A stretch of 64,000 nucleotides of DNA from Candidatus Altarchaeales archaeon (GCA_014727915.1 WJMO01000005.1:1-64000), one strand, 5' to 3'; shown: positions 2,640 to 55,210, counted from the stretch's first letter. Notes: generated from the sequence alone by a model not told the origin. Numbers and translations: made by a program.

Positions 2640-4301
2640 ATGGTTGGTGGTTGGTTCGGTAAGGCGGCGCCCATAGTCCTTGCGCTGGCAGCCCTGCTCT
2701 CATACAGCCAATTCTATTCCATCCAATACGCGGAATTCGACACCATAGCCAAGATAGTCACCTTCAAAGGCGGGCTGGAAGAACTACCAAGGATACTCAC
2801 CACCCCAGAACAACAGTATATGCTCACCACAACAAACTACCGCCCGGTAGCCTCCCTGATACTCTGGGCGATGCACCTACTATTCGGCCTTAACCTGACG
2901 CCTTACCACCTCCTGCTCTACCTCCTACACGCAGCTAACACGGTACTCGCCTACGCGCTCGCGGTGAAGCTCATAAAGGACAGGAGATACGCGTTCCTAG
3001 CCTCCCTCGTCTACGCCGTGCACCCCATCCACCTGCAGACAGTGATATTCATCTCCCGCCTCCCCGACATGCTAGTCGCGCTATCCTCGCTGCTGACCAT
3101 ACTCTCGCTGATGAAGTACGTGAAAAGCAGCGATGAAAGATACTATAAACTCTCAATACTAGCGTGTGGGTTGGGGATATTCAGCAAGGCATCCGGCGGC
3201 CTCATAGTGATATTGGCATTCCTCTACCTAACATTATACGATGGCGGATGGAGGAAGGCCTTGAAGAAGGTCATACCCCACACTGCCCTCTTCATGCTAT
3301 ACCTGCCGATGATGTACCTGGCTTTGGGGAGGATGGCGGGCTACTACGGCCTCCCGGACTCTGAATGGCACTTCGGACTCCTCAACTACATATTCGGCCT
3401 CGCCTACCCCACGAACTTCACGGACTACAGCCTATTCCAGATCGTATACAAGGCAGCTCTTCCACCGGCGCCTAACACAATACTGCTGCTTGCCTCCGCC
3501 GCGGCGCTCGCGCTCTCCATCAAAGCAGCTCTAAAGGACAGGACGGCGGCTTTCGCCCTCGCGTGGCTCCTCACATTCCTCGCGGCGTTCATGTCCCCCT
3601 ACGTGATAGTCAGCCCCTGGTACCTTTACACGCCGGCGATACCCTTCACCATCCTGACAGCATACGTCCTGAAGAGGTCCCTGGAGTCCAAGAACCATGC
3701 TAAAAAGCTCCCGGCAGCATTCATAGCGGTCATATGCGCGGGCCTCATATTCTACTCCCCCCTGCTCTCCGACTACCCGGAACCACGGCAGATGAGCCAG
3801 CTAATCGAGAGCCTCAACGACCACACCCTCGAAGCAGCAGTGAACATGCCGGTCCAGAGCAGCCTCTACCTCTTCAACTACCCTGATTACATGGTATACA
3901 CGGGGAAGGGATACCCCTACTCCCTGTTCATAGTAAGCGAAGCATCGCTCCAAGCCCTCCTAGACTATCACATGCCGGAGAAAGACCACAGGGTACACTC
4001 TGTAACGGCCGTTAGAATGCGATCCCAGATGGGCCAGCCGGCGTTCACGCTGAAGTCGGAGCAGAACTGCTACTTCCTAGCGACAAACCAAAACAGGCGC
4101 GCGGCAGAGCTCAGAATATCGGAACGATGGAATCTCAACAGACAGGGCATGGAGAGGATATCGGTTAAACAGCAGAAAACCCCGGAATCAGAGCACGTTA
4201 TGGTGACCTTCCCAGAGAAAACATACAAGAACACCTATCTTCTGGTGTACACCGGGGACAACATAGAAATCGCCGACCTAAGCATATACTGCACAGTATG
4301 A
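2640..4301 (+). CDS. Polytopic GT-C membrane glycosyltransferase, TMTC/PMT-like
   Basis: 553 aa with about ten or more hydrophobic segments in the first 370 residues and a soluble C-terminal domain of about 170 residues. The segments NYRPVASLILW (about 62-72), YLLHAANT, VYAVHPIHLQTV and FSKASGG are the hallmarks of the TMTC/DUF1736 branch of dolichyl-phosphate-mannose-type transferases. The acidic residues in loop 1 (YAEFDTI, about 30-36) match the catalytic-loop position of GT-C enzymes. Such enzymes transfer a sugar from a lipid-phosphate carrier to protein on the outer face of the membrane. It follows two surface-protein genes in the same direction, which could be substrates (inference). 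An AT-rich stretch (2584-2639) precedes the ATG. Confidence 0.75.
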   Translation: MVGGWFGKAAPIVLALAALLSYSQFYSIQYAEFDTIAKIVTFKGGLEELPRILTTPEQQYMLTTTNYRPVASLILWAMHLLFGLNLTPYHLLLYLLHAANTVLAYALAVKLIKDRRYAFLASLVYAVHPIHLQTVIFISRLPDMLVALSSLLTILSLMKYVKSSDERYYKLSILACGLGIFSKASGGLIVILAFLYLTLYDGGWRKALKKVIPHTALFMLYLPMMYLALGRMAGYYGLPDSEWHFGLLNYIFGLAYPTNFTDYSLFQIVYKAALPPAPNTILLLASAAALALSIKAALKDRTAAFALAWLLTFLAAFMSPYVIVSPWYLYTPAIPFTILTAYVLKRSLESKNHAKKLPAAFIAVICAGLIFYSPLLSDYPEPRQMSQLIESLNDHTLEAAVNMPVQSSLYLFNYPDYMVYTGKGYPYSLFIVSEASLQALLDYHMPEKDHRVHSVTAVRMRSQMGQPAFTLKSEQNCYFLATNQNRRAAELRISERWNLNRQGMERISVKQQKTPESEHVMVTFPEKTYKNTYLLVYTGDNIEIADLSIYCTV

Positions 4302-4331
4302 ATACTTTTCCACTGCTCTCTACCCTACTCT

Positions 4332-4341
4332 ACTTTTAAAG
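4332..4341 (+). promoter_or_regulatory. TATA-like box upstream of the structured leader
   Basis: acttttaaag is an archaeal TATA-like element. The 11-bp stem of the leader starts about 25 bases downstream, the usual distance to an archaeal transcription start, so the transcript would begin at the base of the stem. Confidence 0.45.
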
Positions 4342-4357
4342 AGACGACAAAGTCTAG

Positions 4358-4450
4358 TATGCCCTGGGTGGTTGGCTGTAACAATCCAGGAATCAGAAAC
4401 CGTGAAATCCGGTTTTCAGAATCCACTTGGATCCCGGGGCATAGGAGGTG
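4358..4450 (+). promoter_or_regulatory. Structured RNA leader closed by an 11-bp stem next to a Shine-Dalgarno
   Basis: Bases 4358-4368 pair with 4433-4443 over 11 consecutive positions with a single U-G wobble. The enclosed 64 bases contain a second hairpin, gaaaccg (4397-4402 region) with cggttttc (about 4410-4417), with one bulged base, plus a possible small tcc/gga hairpin before the closing arm. The closing stem runs directly into ggaggtg (4444-4450), a strong ribosome-binding site 8 bases before the ATG at 4459. Most genes here look leaderless, so a long folded leader abutting a strong ribosome-binding site is unusual. I tried TPP, fluoride, guanidine, SAM, c-di-GMP, ZTP and tRNA consensus features and saw none. 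It could also be a separate small RNA. Confidence 0.5.
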
Positions 4451-4458
4451 AACAAAAG

Positions 4459-4575
4459 ATGGAATACTGGACCCAATCAAAGGGAAGGACGGACATGGAC
4501 GCACCATACTCCAAGAGGGGTGGCGGGCGCAGGTACGTCTACAACCGGCTAGGATTCACACCCTCATTCGTGTAA
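4459..4575 (+). CDS. 38-aa Arg/Gly/aromatic small protein
   Basis: Start chosen at the ATG at 4459 because it has the best ribosome-binding site in the area (ggaggtg, 8-base spacing). The longer frame from 4372 would run through the folded leader. The product is basic and rich in Arg, Gly, Tyr (KRGGGRRYVYNR), without a hydrophobic segment, and ends in GFTPSFV. No family is recognised. It sits 54 bases before cdc6 on the same strand, but cdc6 has its own TATA-like box (ctttaaac), so the two need not share a transcript. It may be a real microprotein or a regulatory leader peptide. Confidence 0.45.
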   Translation: MEYWTQSKGRTDMDAPYSKRGGGRRYVYNRLGFTPSFV

Positions 4576-4629
4576 GACCCCCCCTATGCCCCACTCCCTT
4601 CTTTAAACAAGGAATCCGTATGATATACG

Positions 4630-5739
4630 ATGAAAGCAGCCGAGATACTCCTGGACGACGAGACCCTCTTCCGGGACGAGGAGGTCTTCACACCCTCCTA
4701 TGTGCCCGAGGACTTCATACACCGGGACGACCAGCTCAAGGAGATATCACTATCATTGAAGCCAGGTCTCAGGGGTGTGAACCCAGTGAACACCCTAATA
4801 CACGGCCCCCCGGGAACAGGTAAGACAACGGCGGTAAAGCACATATTCAATGAGGTTAACAAGGTCTCCAACAAGCTCGTCACAGTATACGTGAACTGCG
4901 ACGACTACAACACCCGCTTCAGCATATTCAGCAGGATACACGAGGCCGTGTTCGGCACCGCGCCACCGGACACGGGAAAGCCGTTGAACGCGGTCAAAGA
5001 GAAGGTCTTCAGGAAGCTCCAGCGGGAGAACAAGTCCCTCGTCATAGCATTGGACGAGATAGACCAGCTCTTCCTCAACAAGACCATAGACAAGCTCCTA
5101 CTCGACCTGCTGAAGGCCCACACAACCTATGGCTACGACAAGATCGGGATCATCGGAGTCCTCATAGACGACTCCATAGTCTTGGGTTTGGACAGCAAAT
5201 CCAGCAGCGTATTCAACCCCGTGAAAGTCTACTTCCCACCGTACAGCACAGGGGAGGTGGAGGACATACTCTCAGCCAGGATAACCTACGGACTATATGA
5301 CGGCGTCCTATCCAAGGGCCTGTTCGAGTACGTGGTGGAGAAGACCGTCGATGCGGGCGACCTCCGCGTAGGCATAGACCTCATACGCAGGAGCGCATTG
5401 CTGGCTGAGCGGGACAGCTCTCGGAAGATCACATCAGACCATGTGGAACTCGCATATGAGCGGGAATCCAGGAGGGTGAACCTGGAAAGGATGATAAGGT
5501 CCATCGACGACGTTGAAAGGGCTTTATTGCGCATAATAGCCGACTCCAACGGAGAGGTTTCTGGTGTAATACAGGACAGGCTTCGGGAGGCCACCGGCAC
5601 TGGAGTCAAAAAATACAACCAGATGATAGGCAAACTCGAGCATATAGGGCTGATAGAGACCATCCCGGTCAAGGGACGGGGCCAGACCCGTGAGATACGC
5701 CTGAAAAACACAGTTGAAGACGTGCGGGAGCTGGTTTAG
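4630..5739 (+). CDS. cdc6: Orc1/Cdc6 replication initiator, AAA+ ATPase
   Basis: 369 aa, a little shorter than the usual ~400. Walker A GPPGTGKTT is at residues 59-67 and Walker B LVIALDEID at 137-145. The sensor-2 helix GDLRVGIDLIRRS lies at about 243-255, and a winged-helix DNA-binding domain follows from about 285 (PCI-like helices, then GTGVKKYNQMIGKLE and the RGQTREIRL wing). The sensor-1 strand reads GIIGVLIDD, where the family commonly has a Ser-Asn pair. Orc1/Cdc6 binds origin repeats and helps load MCM. A ctttaaac TATA-like element about 25 bases upstream of the ATG suggests a leaderless message. I found no origin-recognition-box repeats in the 330 bases upstream. Confidence 0.95.
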   Translation: MKAAEILLDDETLFRDEEVFTPSYVPEDFIHRDDQLKEISLSLKPGLRGVNPVNTLIHGPPGTGKTTAVKHIFNEVNKVSNKLVTVYVNCDDYNTRFSIFSRIHEAVFGTAPPDTGKPLNAVKEKVFRKLQRENKSLVIALDEIDQLFLNKTIDKLLLDLLKAHTTYGYDKIGIIGVLIDDSIVLGLDSKSSSVFNPVKVYFPPYSTGEVEDILSARITYGLYDGVLSKGLFEYVVEKTVDAGDLRVGIDLIRRSALLAERDSSRKITSDHVELAYERESRRVNLERMIRSIDDVERALLRIIADSNGEVSGVIQDRLREATGTGVKKYNQMIGKLEHIGLIETIPVKGRGQTREIRLKNTVEDVRELV

Positions 5740-5784
5740 GCCGCTTTTATTACCCCTATTGTAATATGTTCACCGGTGATGTGA

Positions 5785-6426
5785 TTGCCACAGCCACATG
5801 TTACATTGACTTCTGCTATGAGCTTGGACGGCAGACTGGAGCCTGAAAGGCCTGACACCCTCCATAACCGCCTGGAAGAGTACAGGGTACAGGAGCTGCG
5901 CGGTAAGGTGGATGCCATAGTCACCAGCGGCGCAAGGGTCTCGGAGGAGAACCCCGAATTCCCAGTCAAGGATTCGATGGGCAAGGAGCCTGCCATAGTC
6001 ATAGTCGACAAGAACGCTGAACTGCCGCCCGAATCCGACGTCCTGAAGAACCAGTCCCGGAAGATGATCCTCGTGACCTCGAGGAAGGCCAACAGGAACA
6101 GGATAAAGCGCATCCAGGAGAAGCGCCCCGACATCGAGGTCATGGAATTGGGAGAGTTCGCAGTCAACCTCGAGGACATGCTCTGGGAGCTTCACAGGGC
6201 AGGTATAAGGAACCTCCTATTGGAAGGTGATGTGAGCCTTAACATGCGCATGCTGGACCACAACCTCGTGAACGAGATGTATCTCCTGGTAGCTCCATTG
6301 CTTTTGGGCGAGCAGGAGCCTTCGGCTTTCGACGGCAAGCTGGAGCGGAAGACCCACCTGCAGCTTGAGGGCATACTCCAGTTCGGAGACCATGTGGTGC
6401 TACACTACAACATAAGGAAACACTAG
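5785..6426 (+). CDS. RibD C-terminal-domain reductase (diaminopyrimidine reductase-like)
   Basis: 213 aa, a stand-alone RibD_C/dihydrofolate-reductase-like domain. The N-terminal TSAMSLDGR (9-17) and the nucleotide-binding LLLEGDVSLN (144-153) match the family signatures. The archaeal enzyme reduces the ribosylamino side chain of 2,5-diamino-6-ribosylaminopyrimidinone phosphate, a step in flavin and deazaflavin synthesis. The TTG start at 5785 is preceded by ggtga at 5775-5779; no ATG gives the conserved N-terminus. The canonical E-G-G is E-G-D here, so the substrate is assigned by family only. It converges with the DUF401 gene, overlapping by 4 bases. Confidence 0.8.
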   Translation: MPQPHVTLTSAMSLDGRLEPERPDTLHNRLEEYRVQELRGKVDAIVTSGARVSEENPEFPVKDSMGKEPAIVIVDKNAELPPESDVLKNQSRKMILVTSRKANRNRIKRIQEKRPDIEVMELGEFAVNLEDMLWELHRAGIRNLLLEGDVSLNMRMLDHNLVNEMYLLVAPLLLGEQEPSAFDGKLERKTHLQLEGILQFGDHVVLHYNIRKH

Positions 6427-7649
6427 CCCAACACCATCGCCGGCCAACCCATAATGTACAATACCACCATAACCGCGACTGCCGCCCCCACGACCCTGAC
6501 GACCTTCCGGTACACGCGGTTGAAGTCGCTTCCATAGTACTCGTTGGTGAGCACGAGACAGAGGTGGACGGGACTCATCATAACGCCCATGAAAGCCCCC
6601 ATGTACGCCACCATGAAGTTGCCGTAGTCTACGCCGGCGGACGCGATGAAGGCCATCAGCAGGGGGAACGTGGACCCCACCGCCGCCACAGTTATGCCCG
6701 TCAGCGCCCCCACTATGAAAGGGACCGTGAAGAGGATGAGGGGGGCTGGTATGCCCGCACCCTCGAAGAAGGACGGCAGCTCGTTGACGGCTCCGCTATC
6801 CTCTATCACCGACTTGAACACCATAACGCTCAATATCAGCAGTGTAAGGTTCAATGTTATCGTCTCCCTGAAGACCCTATGGCGGAATCCCCTGAAAAAA
6901 CCCGATTGGATGAAGACCACGGATAAAACAGCCAGCAAAACGAGCACGAGGTTGATGCCGAACACCAGGTTAGCCACTATCACCGCGGCTATCGGCCAGA
7001 TGCTCCCGACAAGCACTTTGAACCTGGCTAGGAAGTCGCCGTAACCTACATAATCTGATTTTTTCACGTGTCTTAGGAGCATGTACCATCCTCCCACGAT
7101 GGCTGCCAGGGTGAGGGGCCCGTTGGCTACCGCGATCTCGGCATAGGTTATGTCCAGGAGAGCAGCGCTCAGCACAACCGCAGGATAGAGCGGGAACATG
7201 TACTCCCAAACGTGCCGGAACCAGTAGTTTATCGCTGTCTTGGTGTTCGCGTCCACTCCCGCGTTTTCCGCCACCTCCCCCGCCAACGGGGCGGAGAGCA
7301 TCGCGCCCCCGGGCATGGGCATGAGGCCTATGAAGGCGGGTATGGACGCCAACACGACCCTAGTGTCGCCCAATATGTGCTGTATGCTCTCAACGGCCTT
7401 CTGGAGGTTTTCAGTGTGCTTCAGCACGTTCCCAAGCAGGGTGATGAGCCATACTATAGCCAGCAGATTGATGGTATCCAGTTCCGTCGCACCCTCGAAC
7501 ATGGAGTATGAGAGTCTTCCGGGTGTCATGCCGAATAGGAAGCCCAAGACCAGGCTTGCTGCAATCAGGGCGTAGCCCACGTTAAAGCCCCGCCTGATCA
7601 GCAACACCATCGCCGCGAACACGAAAAGTATCTTCGCCAACACGAGCAT
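6423..7649 (-). CDS. DUF401 family integral membrane protein
   Basis: 408 aa with about ten to eleven hydrophobic segments. The segment GLMPMPGGAMLSAPLAGEVAEN, placed after the fourth membrane segment, is the signature of archaeal and bacterial DUF401 proteins, which belong to the ion-transporter superfamily near GntP/DctM-type carriers. The repeated inverted topology with a re-entrant PMPGGAM loop supports a secondary transporter role; the substrate is unknown. The ATG at 7649 is preceded on the minus strand by an AT-rich region with ttaattttatac. No transport partner is adjacent. Confidence 0.8.
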   Translation of the reverse strand: MLVLAKILFVFAAMVLLIRRGFNVGYALIAASLVLGFLFGMTPGRLSYSMFEGATELDTINLLAIVWLITLLGNVLKHTENLQKAVESIQHILGDTRVVLASIPAFIGLMPMPGGAMLSAPLAGEVAENAGVDANTKTAINYWFRHVWEYMFPLYPAVVLSAALLDITYAEIAVANGPLTLAAIVGGWYMLLRHVKKSDYVGYGDFLARFKVLVGSIWPIAAVIVANLVFGINLVLVLLAVLSVVFIQSGFFRGFRHRVFRETITLNLTLLILSVMVFKSVIEDSGAVNELPSFFEGAGIPAPLILFTVPFIVGALTGITVAAVGSTFPLLMAFIASAGVDYGNFMVAYMGAFMGVMMSPVHLCLVLTNEYYGSDFNRVYRKVVRVVGAAVAVMVVLYIMGWPAMVLG

Positions 7650-24919: not shown

Positions 24920-26814
24920 TGGCCTTAAAGGTGTCGAACTTGGCGGGCTGGCTGAAGAGCAGAGAGGACCGCCTCATATACTATTATCTTCTGGCTCTCA
25001 CCATTTTGTTGCTTTTTGGTGTTCGGGGCATGCCATGGGTCAACGACGAACTAGCCTACCTGCTCTCAGTGGACTCCCTGTCCAAGACCGGCTCCCCACT
25101 CGTGGACAATGGCATATCCGATTTTAACGCGCCAGAGCTCGTATTGCATGGCACATTGGTTGTTGACGCCAACGGTAGGCGCATGCTGATGCCCTACCCC
25201 TCCATATTCTATCCCTACTTGGCCTTGCCGTTCTATCTATTGTTCAGCATACCTGGGCTGGTGCTGTTGAACCTGATGTCTTTCATTGCCTCCACATTCC
25301 TCGTCTACCATTTGAGCCTCAGGTTTTTCAACGCTTATGATGTCTCCTTGACTTCCGCAATAGTATATTCAGTACTCACCTACTCAGTGAAGTACTCTCT
25401 CGACATATGGCCTCATAGCCTGTCAGTCCTGGCGGTCCTGCTGTCATCCGCCCTTTTAATCCGGAATGGGGGCGGATCCGTGTTCGCAGCAGGCATGATA
25501 TCCGGTTTGGCAGTGGGGCTGAGATATCCTAATATCATATTCACCCTGGTCCTGGCAGCGTATCTCATACTGTCAAACAGGCCCCGACAGCTTCTTCTCT
25601 TCTCTGCGGGTGCAGCCATCCCACTCTCTATTTTACTGTGGGTCAACAACAGCCTTTATGGCACACCATTAAGGACGGGCTATATAGACTTTGCGGACAC
25701 GGAATACATATGCCAGCTTATGTTCATCCCGTTGGCGATACCTGTGGCCATACTATCTGCACTGGTGGTGAAGCGATACGTGGATGTTCCACTCCTCTAT
25801 CGCAGGCATGGTGGTGATATGAGACGGCTGCTGTTCGCTCTTCTGGTCTTGTCTCTTGTCCTGTTTGGAAACAGAATCATCTACTATCTGGGATTCTTCT
25901 TCTCGCTTGTTGTGGATTTTTCATTCAACCCCTACTATGATGAGTTTATATTCACAAGGGCGATACTCCAGTCTTCTCCCATACTAGTGCTGTCCTTTAT
26001 AGGGATTCACTTGATGATACGTGAGCGGACTAGAAGAGAATCCCTAATATTGCTCGTTTCGATACCTGCTGTGGAGATATTATTCTGTTGCGTTTTAGGG
26101 GTGTTTGGAAGCATGTCCCTTATGCGATACCTGCTGGAGTCGATACCCTACCTCTCGATTCTCTCGGCGTACGCTCTTCACCGGCTCCGTGCATACGTTC
26201 TTTCATGCCCGCAGATTTTCGCCCTTCTCTATGCGCCAGTAATACCCCTCATCATCGAGGCGGTCAACTTTGCAGCCTCCAAAAATCTCATATACTACAC
26301 ATATAAGGTGCCTATGTTACTGTCATTGTCGACTTTGATTGTCTACTATTATGGCATGGGAATCAAGAAGGTTATACTGCCCTATCTTCTCGTCTCCATA
26401 ATAGCCTATTCATTGGTTCTCAACATCACCTTCTTGTCATATAACGTCCTCCACAGGGAATACCTGCTGTCGGAGGCCCATGAGATATCAGAGATTATTC
26501 CTGATGGTTCTCTGGTCCTGCACTCTCGTTACGTGGGCCAGATGATCTATATACCTGCCAAAGTCCATAGGAACCTGGACATAGCCTTCTTGGAGCTGGG
26601 GAACAGGACATCGAACAAGGAGCTTGTGGATCACTACCTCGACAATGGCATTCAAGTTTATGTTGTACCCCCCCATAACAAGTCCGCAAGCTTCATTTAT
26701 GGCATGGTGAAACCCAATGAGGAGCCATATGTGCGGTGGATCCTCTCAGAGTACGAGATCAAAGAGGAAATAACCTTGATAAATGACCGATACCTATTCA
26801 GGATCGGCCGGTGA
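24919..26814 (+). CDS. Polytopic GT-C-type glycosyltransferase-like membrane protein
   Basis: 631 aa, GTG start overlapping the upstream stop (tagtg). About 12-13 hydrophobic segments occupy residues 20-515, followed by a soluble C-terminal region of about 110 residues. GMPWVNDELAYLL in the first outer loop places acidic residues where PMT/ArnT-like GT-C enzymes have their catalytic Asp/Glu, and GLAVGLRYPNIIF is typical of that superfamily. It likely uses a polyprenyl-phosphate sugar on the outer membrane face. The acceptor is unknown. Its last 17 bases overlap the convergent metE gene. Confidence 0.65.
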   Translation: MALKVSNLAGWLKSREDRLIYYYLLALTILLLFGVRGMPWVNDELAYLLSVDSLSKTGSPLVDNGISDFNAPELVLHGTLVVDANGRRMLMPYPSIFYPYLALPFYLLFSIPGLVLLNLMSFIASTFLVYHLSLRFFNAYDVSLTSAIVYSVLTYSVKYSLDIWPHSLSVLAVLLSSALLIRNGGGSVFAAGMISGLAVGLRYPNIIFTLVLAAYLILSNRPRQLLLFSAGAAIPLSILLWVNNSLYGTPLRTGYIDFADTEYICQLMFIPLAIPVAILSALVVKRYVDVPLLYRRHGGDMRRLLFALLVLSLVLFGNRIIYYLGFFFSLVVDFSFNPYYDEFIFTRAILQSSPILVLSFIGIHLMIRERTRRESLILLVSIPAVEILFCCVLGVFGSMSLMRYLLESIPYLSILSAYALHRLRAYVLSCPQIFALLYAPVIPLIIEAVNFAASKNLIYYTYKVPMLLSLSTLIVYYYGMGIKKVILPYLLVSIIAYSLVLNITFLSYNVLHREYLLSEAHEISEIIPDGSLVLHSRYVGQMIYIPAKVHRNLDIAFLELGNRTSNKELVDHYLDNGIQVYVVPPHNKSASFIYGMVKPNEEPYVRWILSEYEIKEEITLINDRYLFRIGR

Positions 26815-27694
26815 GTCTGTCCCTGGCTGACACCATGTTCTCCAGCTTCTTGTAAGCTACCTGTGGGTCGAGGTTTCTGAGGCCGCAGTCGGGGCTGAAG
26901 AACAGCCTGCTGGCGTCCATATGCTCCAGGGCCACGTTCATCCTCTCCTCTATCTCCTCGACGGTCTCTGCCCTGTTCAGGTCGCTCCTCACAACGCCAA
27001 CCCCGAGCTTCTGCTTGAACTTCACATCCTTCACGGTCTCCCAGAGTTGTGGGTTGGCTGCGAACTCATGCTCCAAAACCTCGACTTTGAAACCTGCGAG
27101 CTCCTTGAAAATCTCGCTGACGTCTCCGCAGACGTGCAGCATCCTCGGTTTTTTCACCCCTTTGAGAACGGTCTCGGTCAGCTTCCTCCCGTATTCTGGG
27201 TAGTCTACGGAGTAGAACGGCTCGTCAACCTGCACGTAGTCTACTATCCCGTCCAGCTCCTCAGCCTCCTTTGCCAGCCCACGGGCGTAGGAGAAGGCGA
27301 GGTCTTCTATGCTGTCATAGTAGCGGTTCACAGAGGACTTGGCCATCGTATACGGTCCTGTGATGATGCCCTTGACCTCCACACCCTCTGGAACAAGCTC
27401 CCTGACCTTCCTCTGGTCGTCGATTGTTGAAAGCCGAGAGTATTCTATCTCCTTGAGCACGGTTGGCCTGGTCTGTATGACGACGCCACTGAAGTTCCGC
27501 GCGAAGATGTTTATGAAATCCCCGCGTGTCTGCCCGTCGGAGATGATGTCCAAACCTGCGGCAACCTGCTCTTCAACGGCCTTGGACAGCGACTCCCCCA
27601 CTGCATCGGCTTTCGCGCCCTCATGGTAGGCTTTGGCGTATTTGACGCCGTCCAAGCGGATAGGATAGCTTCCGATGACGGTAGTGGGTATCAT
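26798..27694 (-). CDS. metE: Core methionine synthase (MetE C-terminal-domain type)
   Basis: 298 aa, only the catalytic barrel of cobalamin-independent methionine synthase. TTVIGSYPIRL opens the domain and DIISDGQTRGDF follows. The zinc ligands are present: LHVCGD (His and Cys), the Glu in LEHEFAAN, and SPDCGL (Cys). VQVDEPFY is the homocysteine-side motif. It lacks the N-terminal folate-binding half of bacterial MetE. Core enzymes of this kind are known to use methyl-corrinoid proteins as donor. The ATG overlaps the mtrH stop by 4 bases, and mtrA is just upstream, which points to methyl-MtrA as the donor (inference). Confidence 0.9.
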   Translation of the reverse strand: MIPTTVIGSYPIRLDGVKYAKAYHEGAKADAVGESLSKAVEEQVAAGLDIISDGQTRGDFINIFARNFSGVVIQTRPTVLKEIEYSRLSTIDDQRKVRELVPEGVEVKGIITGPYTMAKSSVNRYYDSIEDLAFSYARGLAKEAEELDGIVDYVQVDEPFYSVDYPEYGRKLTETVLKGVKKPRMLHVCGDVSEIFKELAGFKVEVLEHEFAANPQLWETVKDVKFKQKLGVGVVRSDLNRAETVEEIEERMNVALEHMDASRLFFSPDCGLRNLDPQVAYKKLENMVSARDRLTGRS

Positions 27695-28626
27695 TCTAGC
27701 TTGAAGTATGGGTGGCTGTCTGAGACCTTTACCCCGAAGTAGTCTGCTGAGCCCTCGGCCACCAGCTTGTCTGCGAATGCGATGGATGGGAAGATACGGC
27801 CGTATGAGCTGATGGGCCCGTAGACGATGAAGTCCCCTGACATCAACGGGACCATGCTGTTGGCTGCCGCGTCGGCGCAGTCATAGGCTTCCTGGTGTTC
27901 CCTCCTGTGCTCTTTCATCCAACTCCAGCTCTCCAGGGTGTTGTGTATGGAGCATCCAACTGGCAGTCCGAACTGGTTCTTGAACACCGGTATGGCCCTG
28001 AGGGTCTCGGCGCTCATGCTACCGAAGGGTGTCGCGCCCGTGTCCAACAGGATGCCTTCCACTCCCGCGTCCCGGGCGAGGTCCAAAAGCCCAGTGTCTT
28101 TGACGCATACCATGCCCGCTCCTGAAGAGAGGATATCAGCTCGTCCGTCAACGCTCATGTCACGTGGGTTGTATCCCAGGACTATCGCTGCTGCGGGGGT
28201 GTGCTTCTCCAACGCCTTAATTTCGTCTTCTGTCACCCCCAGGTTTATGCTGTTGTATACTGTCCTGTCCAAAGCGCCTGCCTTGGCCAGCCACCCCAAT
28301 GCCGCAGCCCTTGTCTCCGCGTCGCTGCTGTCTATGCTGAAGGGCAGGTCCGTGGAGTCGAGCACGAGATTAAGCTCTTTTTCTATGTCCTTAGCGTCCT
28401 TGATGTAAACGTCTATCAAACCCGCTATGCCCGTCTCCCTGCTCAAACTCTCCTGGCCGACCACGTACTCCTTGGCTTTGGTCAGTGTTTTATCGTCGAG
28501 GGTCTTGAACTCCCTCCCATAGAATAATGTGCCGAACAAAACGGTCGGGTTCTCCCCAGGCTGACCCCCGAACCGGACCCCTCCCAACTCTACCACAGCC
28601 TGTTCTCTCATGAACGAGTGCATCAT
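27691..28626 (-). CDS. mtrH: MtrH-like methyl-H4MPT:corrinoid methyltransferase
   Basis: 311 aa, usual length for tetrahydromethanopterin S-methyltransferase subunit H. VELGGVRFGGQPGENPTVL, the LPFSIDSS strand, VYNSINLG, IVLGYNPRDMS, GILLDTGATPFGS and GLPVGCSIHNTLESW are family motifs of the pterin-binding TIM barrel. It moves the methyl group from N5-methyl-tetrahydromethanopterin (or a related pterin) to the cobalt of MtrA. The other membrane subunits (MtrB-G) are absent from the locus, so it probably works as a soluble pair with MtrA. ATGA overlaps join it to mtrA upstream and metE downstream. Confidence 0.9.
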   Translation of the reverse strand: MMHSFMREQAVVELGGVRFGGQPGENPTVLFGTLFYGREFKTLDDKTLTKAKEYVVGQESLSRETGIAGLIDVYIKDAKDIEKELNLVLDSTDLPFSIDSSDAETRAAALGWLAKAGALDRTVYNSINLGVTEDEIKALEKHTPAAAIVLGYNPRDMSVDGRADILSSGAGMVCVKDTGLLDLARDAGVEGILLDTGATPFGSMSAETLRAIPVFKNQFGLPVGCSIHNTLESWSWMKEHRREHQEAYDCADAAANSMVPLMSGDFIVYGPISSYGRIFPSIAFADKLVAEGSADYFGVKVSDSHPYFKLE

Positions 28627-29204
28627 CCGGCCTCCGGCGCCGGCGATACGACGCCATACAGGTCAACATCCACCTTGGAGTGCAGGGCGTACTCGCTGTG
28701 GAAGACCTCCAAGACCCTGTCACTGGACACGGGCTCCAGCATCATAGCCTCGTCTAAGGGCCCAGGGCTCCTGCCGGTGCAGTCCTCAACAGCGTCCAAT
28801 ATGGCTTTCAACTCGCTGACCCCTATCAAGTCCACCACCTCGACCTGCTCCCTGAACCTCTTCAAACCATCGGCTGGGAGGTTCTCGATGAAGGGTATAG
28901 CGCTCTTCGCGCCTATCACCCTGTGATTGGAGTCCACGCCGTTACGGTGCAGGCAAATCAGGGCTTCCCCGCTCCTATGACCCCTGACTTCCGTCCCGCA
29001 CACTATTAGGAATCGTATGTTTCGGTTGGATATGACGTTGGCCACCACCTTCTCCACCCCGAGGTTCTCGGTCTTCATGCTACCGTACAATGCAACCTTG
29101 TCCAGGGGCAGGCTGAATTCCTCGCTTAGAGTGACGACAGCCACACAGGACATCCTGTCCCCTTCTGTGAACCGCCCACCCCACGGGTAAAGTCCATGGC
29201 ACAT
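28623..29204 (-). CDS. mtrA: MtrA-like corrinoid-binding protein, soluble
   Basis: 193 aa. The MtrA core is clear: MKTENLGVEKVVANVISN (43-60), IRFLIVCGTEVRGHRSGEA and HRVIGAKSAIPFIENL. His76, in EVRGH, falls at the position I recall as the cobamide axial ligand (His84) of methanogen MtrA. No C-terminal transmembrane helix is present, unlike the membrane-anchored methanogen subunit, so this version should be soluble. First gene of the coupled mtrA-mtrH-metE operon. The product likely shuttles methyl groups from MtrH to MetE. Confidence 0.88.
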   Translation of the reverse strand: MCHGLYPWGGRFTEGDRMSCVAVVTLSEEFSLPLDKVALYGSMKTENLGVEKVVANVISNRNIRFLIVCGTEVRGHRSGEALICLHRNGVDSNHRVIGAKSAIPFIENLPADGLKRFREQVEVVDLIGVSELKAILDAVEDCTGRSPGPLDEAMMLEPVSSDRVLEVFHSEYALHSKVDVDLYGVVSPAPEAG

Positions 29205-29219
29205 GGTTGAATATTTAAC

Positions 29220-29624
29220 CTATCGTCTTATTAAACCGGCGTCCTCAAGGCTGACGGCTACTATCAATACGAGGCCGGTCACCGGCAGTAGCACCTCCTC
29301 CGTGTGGATGTAGATCATAACCAGGAACAATGCCGCAACCACCCTGTCACCCAGATAGTCAGCCCGCTCTCCCAACTCCGTCTCTGTTCCAGTGACCCTT
29401 GCCAGCGCCCCATCCATGAAATCCAACGTGAAGTATGTGAGTATCAGAACAGCGCTTAACGCCGGATTCCGGAACATCAGAAGAACGCCTGCGACCCCGC
29501 AGGGTATGGATGCTGCCGTGAGATGCAATGGCTTGACTCCCGTACTCCCGAGCAACCGCATCAGGGGTGCCAGCCACCTGTCGAGGAGGCTCAACTTGAA
29601 TCTCCTAAGCAGTCTGTACGGCAT
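29220..29624 (-). CDS. Short CDP-alcohol phosphatidyltransferase
   Basis: 134 aa. It holds the complete family motif D-x2-D-G-x2-A-R-x8-G-x3-D-x3-D (within LDFMDGALARVTGTETELG, then ERADYLGD), so the catalytic metal site is intact. Four or so hydrophobic segments are visible, where full-length enzymes have six in about 180-220 aa. It ends ...DAGLIRR soon after the fourth, so it is a minimal or C-terminally truncated form. No frameshifted remainder is apparent downstream. It would join a CDP-activated lipid to an alcohol; the lipid is unknown. Confidence 0.75.
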   Translation of the reverse strand: MPYRLLRRFKLSLLDRWLAPLMRLLGSTGVKPLHLTAASIPCGVAGVLLMFRNPALSAVLILTYFTLDFMDGALARVTGTETELGERADYLGDRVVAALFLVMIYIHTEEVLLPVTGLVLIVAVSLEDAGLIRR

Positions 29625-41074: not shown

Positions 41075-41941
41075 CTATTCGTGCCTTATTATCGTGCTCT
41101 CCTTGTCTAACGGGTTATCAACGAATTTTTGCAGTGTCATCCTGCCCTCGGCCACTTCACCGAGGTTGGCCAGCACCGGCAGCAGGTTGTTGTTGTAGAA
41201 CTGCTGTTTACCCATTGCAGTAGACCGTGTGCTATGGCCCGCTTTGAGGGCTGCTTTACCAGCTGCTTGTATCAGCTCTGGCTGAGCCAGTCCTTCACCG
41301 GGCTCCTTCAATCCCAGACTGTCGGCCCTGTCCCATATCCTCCTGCCCTCAACCCTGGCGTCCTCTATGATCTGGCCCAATGTCTTGTCGCAGTCGAAGC
41401 ACTCCCTGAATCTCATGTTGTTTCTGACATGCTCTGGAACAACATCCGCAAGTTTCATATTTTCCAGACTAGTAATCTGGCCTGGGATATGATTCCCTAG
41501 AACCGGGCTGTCCCGGCCTTGCTGCTCCAATGGCACGACCCTCATCGGCGTGGGCGTCAACCTGATCTCTTGCTCTGCGGGTGCCTGCGCACCATTTTCC
41601 AGTGGCCTTCCCTCGCACGTGAACCTGAGCTCGCCCGTGCTCTGAGCCACCTGCTTCATTAAATCCCTGTCTCCCCGCTTTAAAGCTGCCGCCGCCCTCT
41701 CCAACGCCCCCCTAACCTCCTTCATGTCCTCGCTTCTGCCTGTGCTGTCCCGAATAGCCAACAGCGAACTATGGCCGATCTGAGCTGCTTTGTTCGCAAG
41801 TCCCTTGCCCCTTATCTGCATCAGCCCGGGGTGAAGTTCCCCTGATTCGGATGTTAGGTCAACTTCTATGGTCGTCCTGCCACGTTCGTCCACGTTCTTG
41901 CTGACGCCTCTTATGTGCCTACGCTCCAGGGTGACTGCCAT
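41075..41941 (-). CDS. Module-A protein 4 of the 41-46 kb operon
   Basis: 288 aa, soluble. Residues about 5-115 form a domain (module A) shared with its operon neighbours: RRHIRGVSKNVDERGRTTIEV here matches PEDIKGVRTEVGEDGKLAIRV at 46093. Both then have ...HPG or ...PPG, an ...IGHSSLLAI / LGADSLSAI helix, and a Cys near the end of the domain (FTCEG / QGCKT). The C-terminal 150 residues are helical with CFDCDKTLG. No family is recognised. Last gene of a four-gene operon on the minus strand. Confidence 0.65.
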   Translation of the reverse strand: MAVTLERRHIRGVSKNVDERGRTTIEVDLTSESGELHPGLMQIRGKGLANKAAQIGHSSLLAIRDSTGRSEDMKEVRGALERAAAALKRGDRDLMKQVAQSTGELRFTCEGRPLENGAQAPAEQEIRLTPTPMRVVPLEQQGRDSPVLGNHIPGQITSLENMKLADVVPEHVRNNMRFRECFDCDKTLGQIIEDARVEGRRIWDRADSLGLKEPGEGLAQPELIQAAGKAALKAGHSTRSTAMGKQQFYNNNLLPVLANLGEVAEGRMTLQKFVDNPLDKESTIIRHE

Positions 41942-41985
41942 AAAAGCATATGGGAATCGATCAGTTAATAAATAGGGACTTACTC

Positions 41986-43458
41986 CTATCCTTGCCTGTG
42001 GGTGCTGCCCGTGCTCAGCTGCATTCTTGTGAATCCGTCCAATATGGCCTTCGCTCTCCCCTGGTAGTGCTCTCTGGTGCCCGGGGGCAGGGCTTGTGTC
42101 AGCTCTCCCGTGTATCCTGCGAAACTCTCAGGGCTCATCTGCACCGCAACGGTCAGGTCCGCTATGGTCGGGGGCCCCATAACAGTGGAATTCAAAGCCC
42201 TATCAGATGGCGTATTCCTCACTCTCTCGGACGCGTACTTCAACGCCCGGGCGAAACACAACTCACCCGGCTCGCTAGCCTGTATCGTGGGATTTCCCTG
42301 CGGATAGGCTTGTTTCGCCCTCTCGGCCTGGCCGCGGAGGCACTCTCCCCTAACCCATCCTGCGACCTGGTTGACGTAGCGGGCGGCGTTCATGTAGGCG
42401 CTCCTCGCGGTAGCAACCTGCTTTTCATCAGCGGTGGCAGACGTCCGCCTGGCCATCTGGTCCATTGCCACTTGGCTCAGGTGCTCGTCGAGGGTCAGAC
42501 CCCTGCGCTGGGCTGCCCGGGTCATCTCAGATATCCTCTGCCCTATGTAGAGCTTGACGGCATTCGGGTTCTCAAGCTGGGGGTTGGACTTCAGGAACTC
42601 CGCGTCGGAGGCTGGGAACTCCCTGCCACACGCCGCCTCGGCGATGCGCGCGCTCTGCCTCATGATCTGAGCCTGGCTTCCGGGGTTTTCCATGTCGCTT
42701 CCCCGGTTGGGACAGTTCTTCATGTCAACCGTTAGAACGCCGAGCTTCACATCCGACTCCGCGTTTGGAGCGGCTGGTATGTTCTGCTGTACTGCCCCAG
42801 CAGCTGGGACGCTGCCTGTGACCGGCGGGGCCTGGACTTCACGAGCCCGCGGGGGTGCTGGGGCAGCTGGAGGTGTCGGGGGATATCCTACTCTCTGAGG
42901 TGCGACCTGCTCTGGCATGGTCTGCGGGGGCAACACGACCGGCGGCTGTTTTGTCTGCCGGACTACCGGCGGCGGCTCGACCTCCCCCTCCCTATGCCCC
43001 GGTGCCGGCGGCGGCTTTGGAGACTGCCTGATTCCCGTCCTTGGAAGGGGCGGAGGCCTGATGTTTCTGGTGGAGGTCGCAGGCTGGTCTGATGTCACCT
43101 CCCTACCTTCTGATATGAAGCTGAAAGCGTAGCATTTGTCTACTGCAGACTTCCTCTCAGGGTTTATGACTCCTCCTGTTCTGAGGTCGGCGAGGGCGTC
43201 CCCGAAGAAGCTCTGGACCTTAAGCTGAGTGTCCAAGTCTGGGGTGTCGGTCTCCCCCTGGACTTTCTTTATTGCGGACAGTCCTCTCTGCCCCATTGCC
43301 TCGATCTGCTGGTGGGTGCTGCCCGGGGGAACGACCTCCTCGTTTCCCGGCCTCAGATGCACGTATAGTGTGAGCTTCTCCTGCCTGTCGTGGCCGTGGT
43401 CTCCGACTTGGGCTTTGACGCTCTCTATGTGCTCCTCCCTAATCTGTTTTACGGCCAC
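41986..43458 (-). CDS. Module-A protein 3, with Pro-rich linker
   Basis: 490 aa, soluble. Module A (about 3-115): REEHIESVKAQVG...LTLYVHLRPGNEEVVPPG...GQRGLSAIKK, then a Cys-containing strand CYAFSFISEG, close to the second module-A copy of the 758-aa protein (YSLTFRVGNEF). A Pro/Gln-rich linker (about 125-245, PPLPRTG, PPAPPRAREVQ) leads into a C-terminal helical domain of about 240 residues with CGREFPASDAEF, SEMTRAAQRRGLTLDEHL and RGECLRGQAERAKQAYP. The start overlaps the 3' end of the 104-aa gene by 20 bases. Confidence 0.65.
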   Translation of the reverse strand: MAVKQIREEHIESVKAQVGDHGHDRQEKLTLYVHLRPGNEEVVPPGSTHQQIEAMGQRGLSAIKKVQGETDTPDLDTQLKVQSFFGDALADLRTGGVINPERKSAVDKCYAFSFISEGREVTSDQPATSTRNIRPPPLPRTGIRQSPKPPPAPGHREGEVEPPPVVRQTKQPPVVLPPQTMPEQVAPQRVGYPPTPPAAPAPPRAREVQAPPVTGSVPAAGAVQQNIPAAPNAESDVKLGVLTVDMKNCPNRGSDMENPGSQAQIMRQSARIAEAACGREFPASDAEFLKSNPQLENPNAVKLYIGQRISEMTRAAQRRGLTLDEHLSQVAMDQMARRTSATADEKQVATARSAYMNAARYVNQVAGWVRGECLRGQAERAKQAYPQGNPTIQASEPGELCFARALKYASERVRNTPSDRALNSTVMGPPTIADLTVAVQMSPESFAGYTGELTQALPPGTREHYQGRAKAILDGFTRMQLSTGSTHRQG

Positions 43459-43753
43459 CTTCAGATTCTCCAGTATGCTGTCTCTTTATATTCTCAAGCA
43501 GCTTGCTCTTCTCGTCGAGGTCGTGTATTATCTCCTCGTCCAGCCTAACCTTGATGTTCTCCACGTTCTTGGCGCCGAGCTTCTCCAACACCTCCGACGC
43601 GGGCTTGCCCGACAGCTTCCTGAGGAACTCAACGGTGTCCTCGTCCAGTTTTTCAGGGTCAACGTCGACTGTGATGTTCAGCTTGCCGGTCTCAGGGTCA
43701 GTGGACACCACAACCTCCCGGATACCCTCCTTCCTGATCTCAGGCTCCATCAC
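43439..43753 (-). CDS. Module-A protein 2, short
   Basis: 104 aa. It consists of a single shortened module A (residues about 8-75): IREVVVSTDPETGKLNITVDVDP aligns with IKGVRTEVGEDGKLAIRVHLDP of the 758-aa protein. A Leu/Lys/Glu helix follows (DEEIIHDLDEKSKLLENIK). No signal or membrane segment. It lies 63 bases after the 758-aa gene and overlaps the 490-aa gene. Confidence 0.6.
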   Translation of the reverse strand: MMEPEIRKEGIREVVVSTDPETGKLNITVDVDPEKLDEDTVEFLRKLSGKPASEVLEKLGAKNVENIKVRLDEEIIHDLDEKSKLLENIKRQHTGESEGGRKTD

Positions 43754-43816
43754 ATATATACATTAAAAGAGGGGGTTATTTAATGGAATCCCCACACCCA
43801 AGGGCACAGTCTCCCG

Positions 43817-46093
43817 TCACATATCTGCCTTCTCTGTCGTGGCTGCTTTCTCAGCAGATTCAGTTACTGGTTGCTCTGCTCCGCCGGTCAGGCTGGCTAG
43901 CGTGTGTGCCACCACCCTCTGATGGTCTTCCTGTTCCATGGACTTGAGCCGGTCCGCGCCGAGGGCGCTCTGGTACACCATCCCGGCAATCAGCCGCGGA
44001 TCGTCCTTGCCGGTCTTTTCATCCGGGCCGAGCTCCAAGTAGCCTAGCATCTGCTCGGCGCCGAGCCCCAGGGACCGAAGACGTCCTGATATCTCGGCTC
44101 CAATCTGCTCTTGTGTCGCGCCGGCTGGGATGGGATGGGCCAACCTGTCCAGCAACCTCTCACGCTCACCCCCAGCTCCTGATTCCCCTCTCATTCTCCC
44201 GCTTATCTGGGCGAACATCTTTCCGTGTTCCGGCTCCCCCATGGACTCCAGCCTTTCATGTCCAAGGGCCCGGGTGTAAACAGCCCTGGCTATCATCCTA
44301 GGGTCGTCTGCCGGGTATTCCCCTGGTTTGGTGCAGGCTTCGAACTCCTCCGGGGTTATGCCCACGGCCTTCATCCTGTCGGATATCTCTGCGGCGACCT
44401 GCTCCGGCGGGACGTCTGGTTTAACAGGGGATCTTATCCTCTGCTCGATGCTCTGTCTTTCCCCCTCACCCTGCTCGGGAGGCTTGTGTCCCATCTTGTG
44501 AAGTATGTCGTTCACCATTCTGGCGTGTTCTTCACCGGTCATCCTGCCCTCACCGCCTTCCCCTCCGTTGACCCGTTCAGCGCCTAGTGACTGGAGGTAT
44601 ATAGCGTGCGCCCTGTAAAGCGGGTCATCGGGTCTCATGTTCTCGTCTGGCGGGGTCTGAACTGCTTCCAGGAACCTCTCGGATGTTATCCCCCCACCCT
44701 GCAACCTCGACCCTATCTCCGCGGCAATCTCGTCATTGGACGTTCCGGCGGGTATGGTCTCGGCCATGACCCTCTCCCTCATCCTCTCATCCATGGCTGT
44801 GGAGGGCCCGGCATCCTGTCTTGGAGGGCTTGCACCATCCGATGTTTCCCCTGCTGATCGCATGCCCCCCACCATCGCCAGCTCGTCCTCTGATACTATG
44901 CTCCCCAGCTCCCCATCGGTCAGGGCGCTCTCCTTCCTCCTTGCGGCTGCCCTGAGCCTCACCTCCCTATGGGCCTTCTGGTGGGGTCCCAGCCTGAAGC
45001 CCCTACCAGTATTCGGCGTGTACTCGTAGGGTTCCTCTATGAATTCGTTGCCCACCCTGAAGGTGAGGCTGTAGCTCTGGTCCATGCCGTTACGGTCGCC
45101 TGTGAACTCCCCCGACTTGTTCTTCGTGCCGTCGACTGCCGCGTTCAGGAAGTTCTGCGCCTCCAACTGGGTTTGCAGCTCGAAACCATGCGCCTTCTTC
45201 CTTATGGATTCCAATGAAGCCGGCCCAAGTTCTTCAAGCCGGTCGCTTGTCGGCTCCGGCCTTGGAACCATAGACTCACAACCCTCCCCTAACGTGACAT
45301 ACAATTTGACACCGGTCGGTGTCTTCTCGGCTTTGACCTCCTCTATGTCATCCGGCCTAATCGCGTCCGGGCCCCTAACAAAATCCCCTGGCTCTCCCGC
45401 CATAGGGGCTGCTACTGGACTCTCTGTTTTCGCCGTATTCACATCCCCGGTTGCAGTAGGGTCCCCGCCTGGAACAGCCCGTCTCTCAGCGGTCGCATCC
45501 TGACCTTCCGCTGAAGTTCTTACCTGCTGGTCTACGTCGCGCCTATCCTGCCTTTCCGATGTTGGCGCATCAGAAGTTGGGGTGCCGGGTCCTGGTGCGG
45601 TCGTAGCCTCTGGGTTAGCCGCTGGCCTCGGCGTCTCTGATGTTGCAGGTGCCGCCCTCTCGCCCTTTTCTGGTGGCATGTCCGCTGATTTCCCCCTTCT
45701 CTCGCCTCCTTTCTGCGCGGGCTGGGGCATGTCTCCTTCCACGAACTCGATCGTCTTGCACCCCTGGTCTATCAGGCCTGCCGTGATAAACGACAGGTCT
45801 CCAGTATCTCTTATCTCGTTGCCTGCCAGGTCGAGGAACTCCGCCGCCCTCTGCCTCTCATGCAAGCTCCTGTCTTTTGGGGATGTTCGGGCGTGTATTG
45901 CACTCAGCGAGTCCGCGCCGAGGTGTTCGAACCTGTCTGCCGGCCCCAAACCCGCGAACTCAGGACCCGGAGGAATAACACCCGCCTTCGGGTCCAGGTG
46001 AACGCGGATTGCCAGCTTACCATCCTCTCCCACTTCAGTGCGCACGCCCTTGATGTCCTCAGGCCTCAGCTGCTGGATCCTCTTGGCCATCAT
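43817..46093 (-). CDS. 758-aa modular protein (two module-A copies, three module-B repeats)
   Basis: Soluble protein built of repeats. Module A occurs at about 8-115 and again at 245-355, separated by a Pro/Thr/Ala-rich linker (120-240). Three module-B repeats of about 80 residues follow at about 444-534, 556-632 and 650-731. Each has the order I-P-A-G-x3-(E/D)-(E/Q)-(I/V)-x-A-E-I-x-x-R-(L/M), then (G/A)-(I/L)-(T/G)-x-E-x-(F/M), a D-D-P-x-x-x-A-x-x-Y-x-x-(A/S)-L-G core, R-(L/V) and a closing helix. The same module B is found once in the tail of the VirB6-like protein at about residues 1160-1243, including AYTRAL versus VYTRAL. No known family. First gene of the operon; its ATG faces rpoE1 across an AT-rich gap. 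Confidence 0.65.
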   Translation of the reverse strand: MMAKRIQQLRPEDIKGVRTEVGEDGKLAIRVHLDPKAGVIPPGPEFAGLGPADRFEHLGADSLSAIHARTSPKDRSLHERQRAAEFLDLAGNEIRDTGDLSFITAGLIDQGCKTIEFVEGDMPQPAQKGGERRGKSADMPPEKGERAAPATSETPRPAANPEATTAPGPGTPTSDAPTSERQDRRDVDQQVRTSAEGQDATAERRAVPGGDPTATGDVNTAKTESPVAAPMAGEPGDFVRGPDAIRPDDIEEVKAEKTPTGVKLYVTLGEGCESMVPRPEPTSDRLEELGPASLESIRKKAHGFELQTQLEAQNFLNAAVDGTKNKSGEFTGDRNGMDQSYSLTFRVGNEFIEEPYEYTPNTGRGFRLGPHQKAHREVRLRAAARRKESALTDGELGSIVSEDELAMVGGMRSAGETSDGASPPRQDAGPSTAMDERMRERVMAETIPAGTSNDEIAAEIGSRLQGGGITSERFLEAVQTPPDENMRPDDPLYRAHAIYLQSLGAERVNGGEGGEGRMTGEEHARMVNDILHKMGHKPPEQGEGERQSIEQRIRSPVKPDVPPEQVAAEISDRMKAVGITPEEFEACTKPGEYPADDPRMIARAVYTRALGHERLESMGEPEHGKMFAQISGRMRGESGAGGERERLLDRLAHPIPAGATQEQIGAEISGRLRSLGLGAEQMLGYLELGPDEKTGKDDPRLIAGMVYQSALGADRLKSMEQEDHQRVVAHTLASLTGGAEQPVTESAEKAATTEKADM

Positions 46094-55160: not shown

Positions 55161-55210
55161 GGCGGCAGCCCAGTAAAAATATGGGTTCCAAACTATTTAA
55201 TTATAATATA

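Follow-up and report, generated by a model that had tools for sequence, protein, structure and literature searches.

A conserved mtrA-mtrH-metE operon of Altiarchaeota and Thermoplasmatota is predicted to encode a folate-fed, corrinoid-dependent methionine synthase

Pairs of MtrA and MtrH are widespread outside the methanogens, where their role is listed as unclear and has been guessed to be the feeding of the Wood-Ljungdahl pathway (PMC9635834), and a locus in which both genes are joined to a metE gene raises the question of whether such a pair could instead supply methyl groups for methionine. Parts of such a relay have been anticipated: MtrA was predicted as the donor of MesA, which was placed only in methanogens (Price 2021, PMC7857596), a few genomes were reported in which mesA and mtrA lie near each other (Price and Arkin 2024, PMC11378808), and MtrH had earlier been put forward as a candidate, as work on core MetE notes (PMC7005905). 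The literature searched (subscription journals and preprints lying outside it) treats either MtrAH by itself or MtrA as the donor to MesA, and contained no description of an mtrA-mtrH-metE operon. We analysed a window of 64,000 nucleotides, the whole stretch of DNA under study, from contig C12 of an altiarchaeal genome (1.81 Mb, 91% complete), and we consider its operon, with a probability of roughly 0.77, to encode a methionine synthase that is fed by folate, depends on a corrinoid, and is divided among three proteins.

The original prediction of a three-gene array joined by ATGA overlaps was borne out by the coordinates, by the Pfam matches (Table 1), and by both junctions, mtrA/mtrH and mtrH/metE (GGATGATG and GAATGATA). 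A three-gene operon describes the source genome well, whereas most other genomes carry a larger one that includes a DUF4346 gene and sometimes metF. The short CDP-alcohol phosphatidyltransferase gene just 5′ of mtrA occurs there in four Altiarchaeota genomes, with the same placement on contigs L002, L003, and L215, and was not found beside the Thermoplasmatota operons; it is kept as a neighbor of mtrA only in Altiarchaeota, has no evident link to methionine, and is probably not part of the pathway. Elsewhere in the window, a 2241-aa Cys-rich ORF with a peptidase-M23-like N-terminus by eye (50829-61936) and a 1443-aa ORF for a Gly/Ala-rich membrane protein (41075-46093) lie near several Pro-rich ORFs and resemble a secretion or conjugation-type cluster, and a 689-aa ORF (61-2130) carries degenerate GG-Y-N-A-S-G repeats like the head repeats of trimeric autotransporters, though it is archaeal.

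Table 1 Operon genes and related genes of the source genome (positions without a contig label are those of the window)
Feature	Position	Strand and context	Assignment and match
mtrA	28623-29204	minus	soluble corrinoid carrier, 193 aa, axial His76; PF04208, E=4.8e-53
mtrH	27691-28626	minus	methyl-pterin:corrinoid methyltransferase (predicted), 311 aa; PF02007, E=1.2e-72
metE/mesA	26798-27694	minus	core methionine synthase (predicted), 298 aa; PF01717, E=1.5e-37
CDP-alcohol phosphatidyltransferase	29220-29624	minus, 15 nt upstream of mtrA	PF01066
DUF4346	C12:265706-266026	outside the operon here; adjoins metE in most other genomes	PF14251
MTHFR	C12:120498-121382		PF02219, 100.7 bits
Fhs (formate-THF ligase)	C3:480459-482117		841 bits, over cut-off
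FolD	C3:485735-486568		
GlyA	C3:486565-487857		over cut-off

Outside the source genome, the mtrA-mtrH-metE order was found in two further genera of Altiarchaeota as well as 48 genomes of Thermoplasmatota, and because of this recurrence it is not a chance arrangement. Among the Altiarchaeota, two relatives of the same family (G022 and G023) carry the operon on contigs L006 and L007, and the full order CDP-alcohol transferase-mtrA-mtrH-metE-DUF4346 is present on L002 and L003; Thermoplasmata contigs L008-L011 also carry the three genes. In a sample of 390 Thermoplasmatota genomes, MtrH was detected in 64, and metE lies beside mtrH in 46 of these, directly adjacent in 45 and separated by one opposite-strand ORF in G403. 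These 46, together with the genomes of L010 and L011, make up the 48 operon genomes of this phylum. DUF4346 follows in 45 of the 46 loci, the exception being at a contig end. Another 13 of the 64 belong to the Methanomassiliicoccales type, in which MtrA is longer and metE is missing. The remaining five mtrH loci are truncated where the contig stops, and in two of them (G047 and G409) the ~ 3 kb available downstream contains no metE. An upstream mtrA was present in 43 of the 48 operon genomes, three of the other five being cut by contig ends, and in three genomes (G399, G403, and G268; loci L279, L295, and L309) metF, encoding MTHFR, is the first gene of the operon, directly upstream of mtrA and overlapping it in G399 and G403. 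Pairwise identities of the four operon proteins correlate across operons with r = 0.91-0.94, as expected of genes inherited together. A variant, metF-metE-mtrH, was found in three Odin/Baldr Asgard genomes (L079, L080, and L081 at 4157-6924); MtrA was not found anywhere in these genomes, and in their MetE an Ala replaces the zinc-ligand Glu.

Two further observations concern the mtrAH loci of the Methanomassiliicoccales type. On L310 (1207-2856) and L312 (5277-6950), they lie beside genes for a RACo/RamA-like activase, an MtaA-like methyltransferase, and a metallo-beta-lactamase-like protein, a different setting that is in keeping with coenzyme M as the recipient. On L218, L225, L228, L229, L231, and L232, the mtrH match contains a single in-frame stop, which is TAG in five cases and TGA in the other; it could reflect readthrough, pyrrolysine, or a stop that lies just short of where the match ends.

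The carrier encoded by the operon has the properties of a soluble MtrA. No transmembrane helix was found (highest Kyte-Doolittle 19-residue mean 1.36), its best PDB match is the Methanothermus fervidus MtrA with cobalamin (5laa, E=2.6e-44), and H76 falls on the GH motif of that cobalamin-bound protein in the alignment, a position at which His is invariant in all 73 rows of the MtrA alignment; in M. marburgensis MtrA, the axial ligand is His84 (PMC4915002). The expectation of a soluble MtrA with its axial His was thus confirmed. MtrH matches both MtrH itself (9qtp, E=2.7e-58) and a methylcorrinoid:tetrahydrofolate methyltransferase (6sj8, E=1.5e-39), and the operon MtrHs form one clade (support 100/99), apart from those of Methanomassiliicoccales, Asgard archaea, and bacteria. 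An identity as an MtgA-type methylcorrinoid:THF methyltransferase was rejected, the score against model NF047990 being 156 bits for a cut-off of 550. The source genome holds a single MtrA and a single MtrH, both in the operon, and MtrE (PF04206) is absent from it, from the other Altiarchaeota, and from the four Thermoplasmatota operon genomes tested, which agrees with the proposal that this pair is detached from the sodium-pumping complex.

PF01717 spans the whole 298-aa MetE, leaving only the catalytic domain without the folate-binding N-terminal domain, and the zinc ligands (H187, C189, E210, and C270) and homocysteine residues (S9, Q55, and D157) are kept in the readable operon MetEs of both phyla. 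These proteins have Gln where MetE and split MetE carry Glu in the homocysteine site, a MesA signature, and they form a group (support 99/97) with a methanogen MesA and the Asgard proteins, while the split MetE of the same phylum falls elsewhere. Against the curated methionine synthase model NF002119 (PRK00957), the protein scores 249.7 bits, slightly under the cut-off of 258. All 54 operon genomes that were searched contain exactly one PF01717 protein, and in the source genome it is the operon metE; E. coli MetH as query matched no ORF there at E<0.01. Neither full nor split MetE was found in the three complete Altiarchaeota mtrAH-metE genomes, and the Altiarchaeota that lack MtrAH but have any MetE carry it at full length in two cases (G020 and G026), as a pair of genes like that of split MetE in ten (G005, G009-G011, G016-G019, G024, and G028), and MetE fragments only in G025. 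As the only MetE-type protein of its genome, the operon metE supports the earlier proposal that MtrA and MtrH feed a core MetE. An archaeal methionine adenosyltransferase (MAT) was found by motif in the source genome, and a motif search for SahH, a weak test, found none.

The identity of the methyl-bearing pterin is where the original prediction, which had the methyl group coming from methyl-tetrahydromethanopterin (H4MPT) and expected H4MPT enzymes in the genome, was not upheld. RFAP synthase catalyzes the committed step of methanopterin synthesis, and it (TIGR00144) and Mch (PF02289) were used as markers, both searches matching in the expected control genomes. Neither of these two markers was found in the source genome, in four other genomes of its family, or in four Thermoplasmatota operon genomes. 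Present instead is a set of tetrahydrofolate (THF) C1 genes: PurN, PurH, and FolC lie alongside Fhs, FolD, and GlyA within C3:478-488 kb, glycine cleavage genes, GcvT among them, at C12:306-311 kb, and MTHFR elsewhere on C12. Because both H4MPT markers are absent and the THF C1 set is present, methyl-THF rather than methyl-H4MPT is most likely the donor. E. coli FolP had no match in the source genome, and MTHFR was found in 39 of the 48 Thermoplasmatota operon genomes and not in the other nine (MAGs of 0.7-2.0 Mb). The same relay fed by methyl-H4MPT would suit the closeness of MtrH and MtrA to methanogen proteins that use this pterin, and Mch is present in the Asgard genomes with metF-metE-mtrH; against the two missing markers in nine genomes and the presence of Fhs, FolD, GlyA, PurN, PurH, GcvT, and MTHFR, we regard it as quite unlikely.

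We also considered that MtrAH might serve the Wood-Ljungdahl pathway or coenzyme M, with metE a mere neighbor or supplied by another corrinoid protein (CoFeSP). Both destinations have been published as hypotheses, the former for MtrAH outside methanogens (PMC9635834) and the latter for Methanomassiliicoccales MtrAH (PMC6147122). However, acetyl-CoA synthase (PF03598) is absent from every one of the 52 operon genomes tested in Altiarchaeota and Thermoplasmatota, which argues against a Wood-Ljungdahl role and against CoFeSP as donor, so that for these genomes either partner was ruled out, whereas the enzyme is present in 4 of 4 tested genomes with Methanomassiliicoccales-type mtrAH, which lack metE next door and whose MtrHs form a separate clade. 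Given also the conserved adjacency of metE and its standing as sole MetE-type protein, this explanation is very unlikely. A reversed relay, in which the MetE-like protein demethylates a methylated thiol and MtrA and MtrH load folate for catabolism, has a precedent in MtrH homologs such as MtgA that run from methylcorrinoid to THF (compare the 6sj8 match), yet it is highly improbable in view of the distant MtgA cut-off, the full MesA-type homocysteine and zinc site, the exclusive replacement of MetE and split MetE, and the presence of metF inside some operons.

Gene order, protein families, active-site residues, genome content, and the replacement of MetE can be read from the sequence, while the exact pterin is inferred, as are the methyl transfers and their direction, for which we draw on the established chemistry of MtrH, MtrA, and MesA. 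The route from MtrH to MtrA to core MetE to methionine is well supported. MTHFR, encoded elsewhere in the source genome and inside the operon in some relatives, would make 5-methyl-THF, whose methyl group MtrH would load onto the cob(I) corrinoid carried by soluble MtrA; in its methylated form, MtrA would then dock onto the MesA-type core MetE, where zinc-activated homocysteine would accept the methyl group to give methionine.

The small DUF4346 protein probably acts as an accessory subunit that serves MtrA or the pterin. The NCBI model NF002128, which describes an 'MtrA' of 390 aa, includes DUF4346 at positions 288-369, the dihydropteroate-synthase-like TIGR00284 includes such a stretch too, and these natural fusions tie the domain to MtrA; its AlphaFold model (fair, pLDDT 85.5) had no PDB match with E below 0.001. 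With regard to the corrinoid, the E. coli BtuR query matched in the source genome, BtuC, BtuF, CobS, CobT, and CobU did not, and only weak matches to a RACo/RamA-like reactivase were seen. At C3:507790-510520 in this genome (G000), a corrinoid adenosyltransferase (BtuR/CobA) gene overlaps the final part of a ribonucleotide reductase gene (PF02867), which we read as the B12-dependent class; the pair indicates other B12 handling in the organism.

What is new here is the context of MtrH, DUF4346, and metF, the link to folate, the substitution for MetE, and a likely function of MtrAH in non-methanogens. The operon suggests what may be the task of the 'orphan' MtrAH pairs of anaerobic non-methanogenic archaea, and in the many archaea without acetyl-CoA synthase it points to methionine synthesis and not to the Wood-Ljungdahl pathway; metagenomic MtrA or MtrH should therefore not be counted as evidence of methanogenesis or of that pathway. 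The genomic pattern also lends strong support to the prediction of MtrA as the MesA methyl donor, it extends the range of MesA beyond the methanogens, and the proposed relay implies that a 'folate-independent' synthase can be folate-fed by way of MtrH. The small soluble proteins offer a means of studying the MtrH-to-MtrA step away from the membrane complex. A broader reading, that metF-mtrA-mtrH-metE-DUF4346 forms a complete methionine synthase of a separate type and that methionine synthesis was an early or the original use of MtrA-MtrH, later drawn into the sodium-pumping Mtr complex, is speculative and on balance unlikely.

Among known systems, the closest is the core methionine synthase MesA of methanogens, reportedly described by Schroeder and Thauer in 1999 (METE_METTM), which likewise has a core MetE without folate domain and the same zinc and homocysteine residues, including the Gln; the operon MetE differs in occurring in non-methanogens with its own MtrA and MtrH (plus DUF4346 and sometimes metF), in genomes without MtrE or H4MPT markers and most likely folate-fed. 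With the Mtr complex (MtrA-H), the operon shares the methyl-pterin to corrinoid chemistry and the axial His, but MtrE was not found, MtrA has no membrane anchor, and the predicted acceptor is homocysteine instead of coenzyme M. The Methanomassiliicoccales MtrAH (MALP, PMC6147122) resembles it in combining MtrA and MtrH without the rest of Mtr in a folate-using host with methyl-THF as proposed donor, and is unlike it in its longer MtrA, other MtrH clade, lack of metE, and proposed acceptor, coenzyme M. The archaeal split MetE, composed of a catalytic and an N-terminal protein and used by related Altiarchaeota, has a homologous catalytic subunit, whereas the operon lacks the N-terminal subunit, has Gln for Glu, and would use a corrinoid relay instead of direct transfer. 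Finally, the overall logic from methyl-THF to corrinoid to zinc-bound homocysteine would be that of MetH, although here it is distributed over three separate proteins, with a MetE-type homocysteine unit and a corrinoid carrier of the MtrA fold that has no sequence relation to that of MetH.
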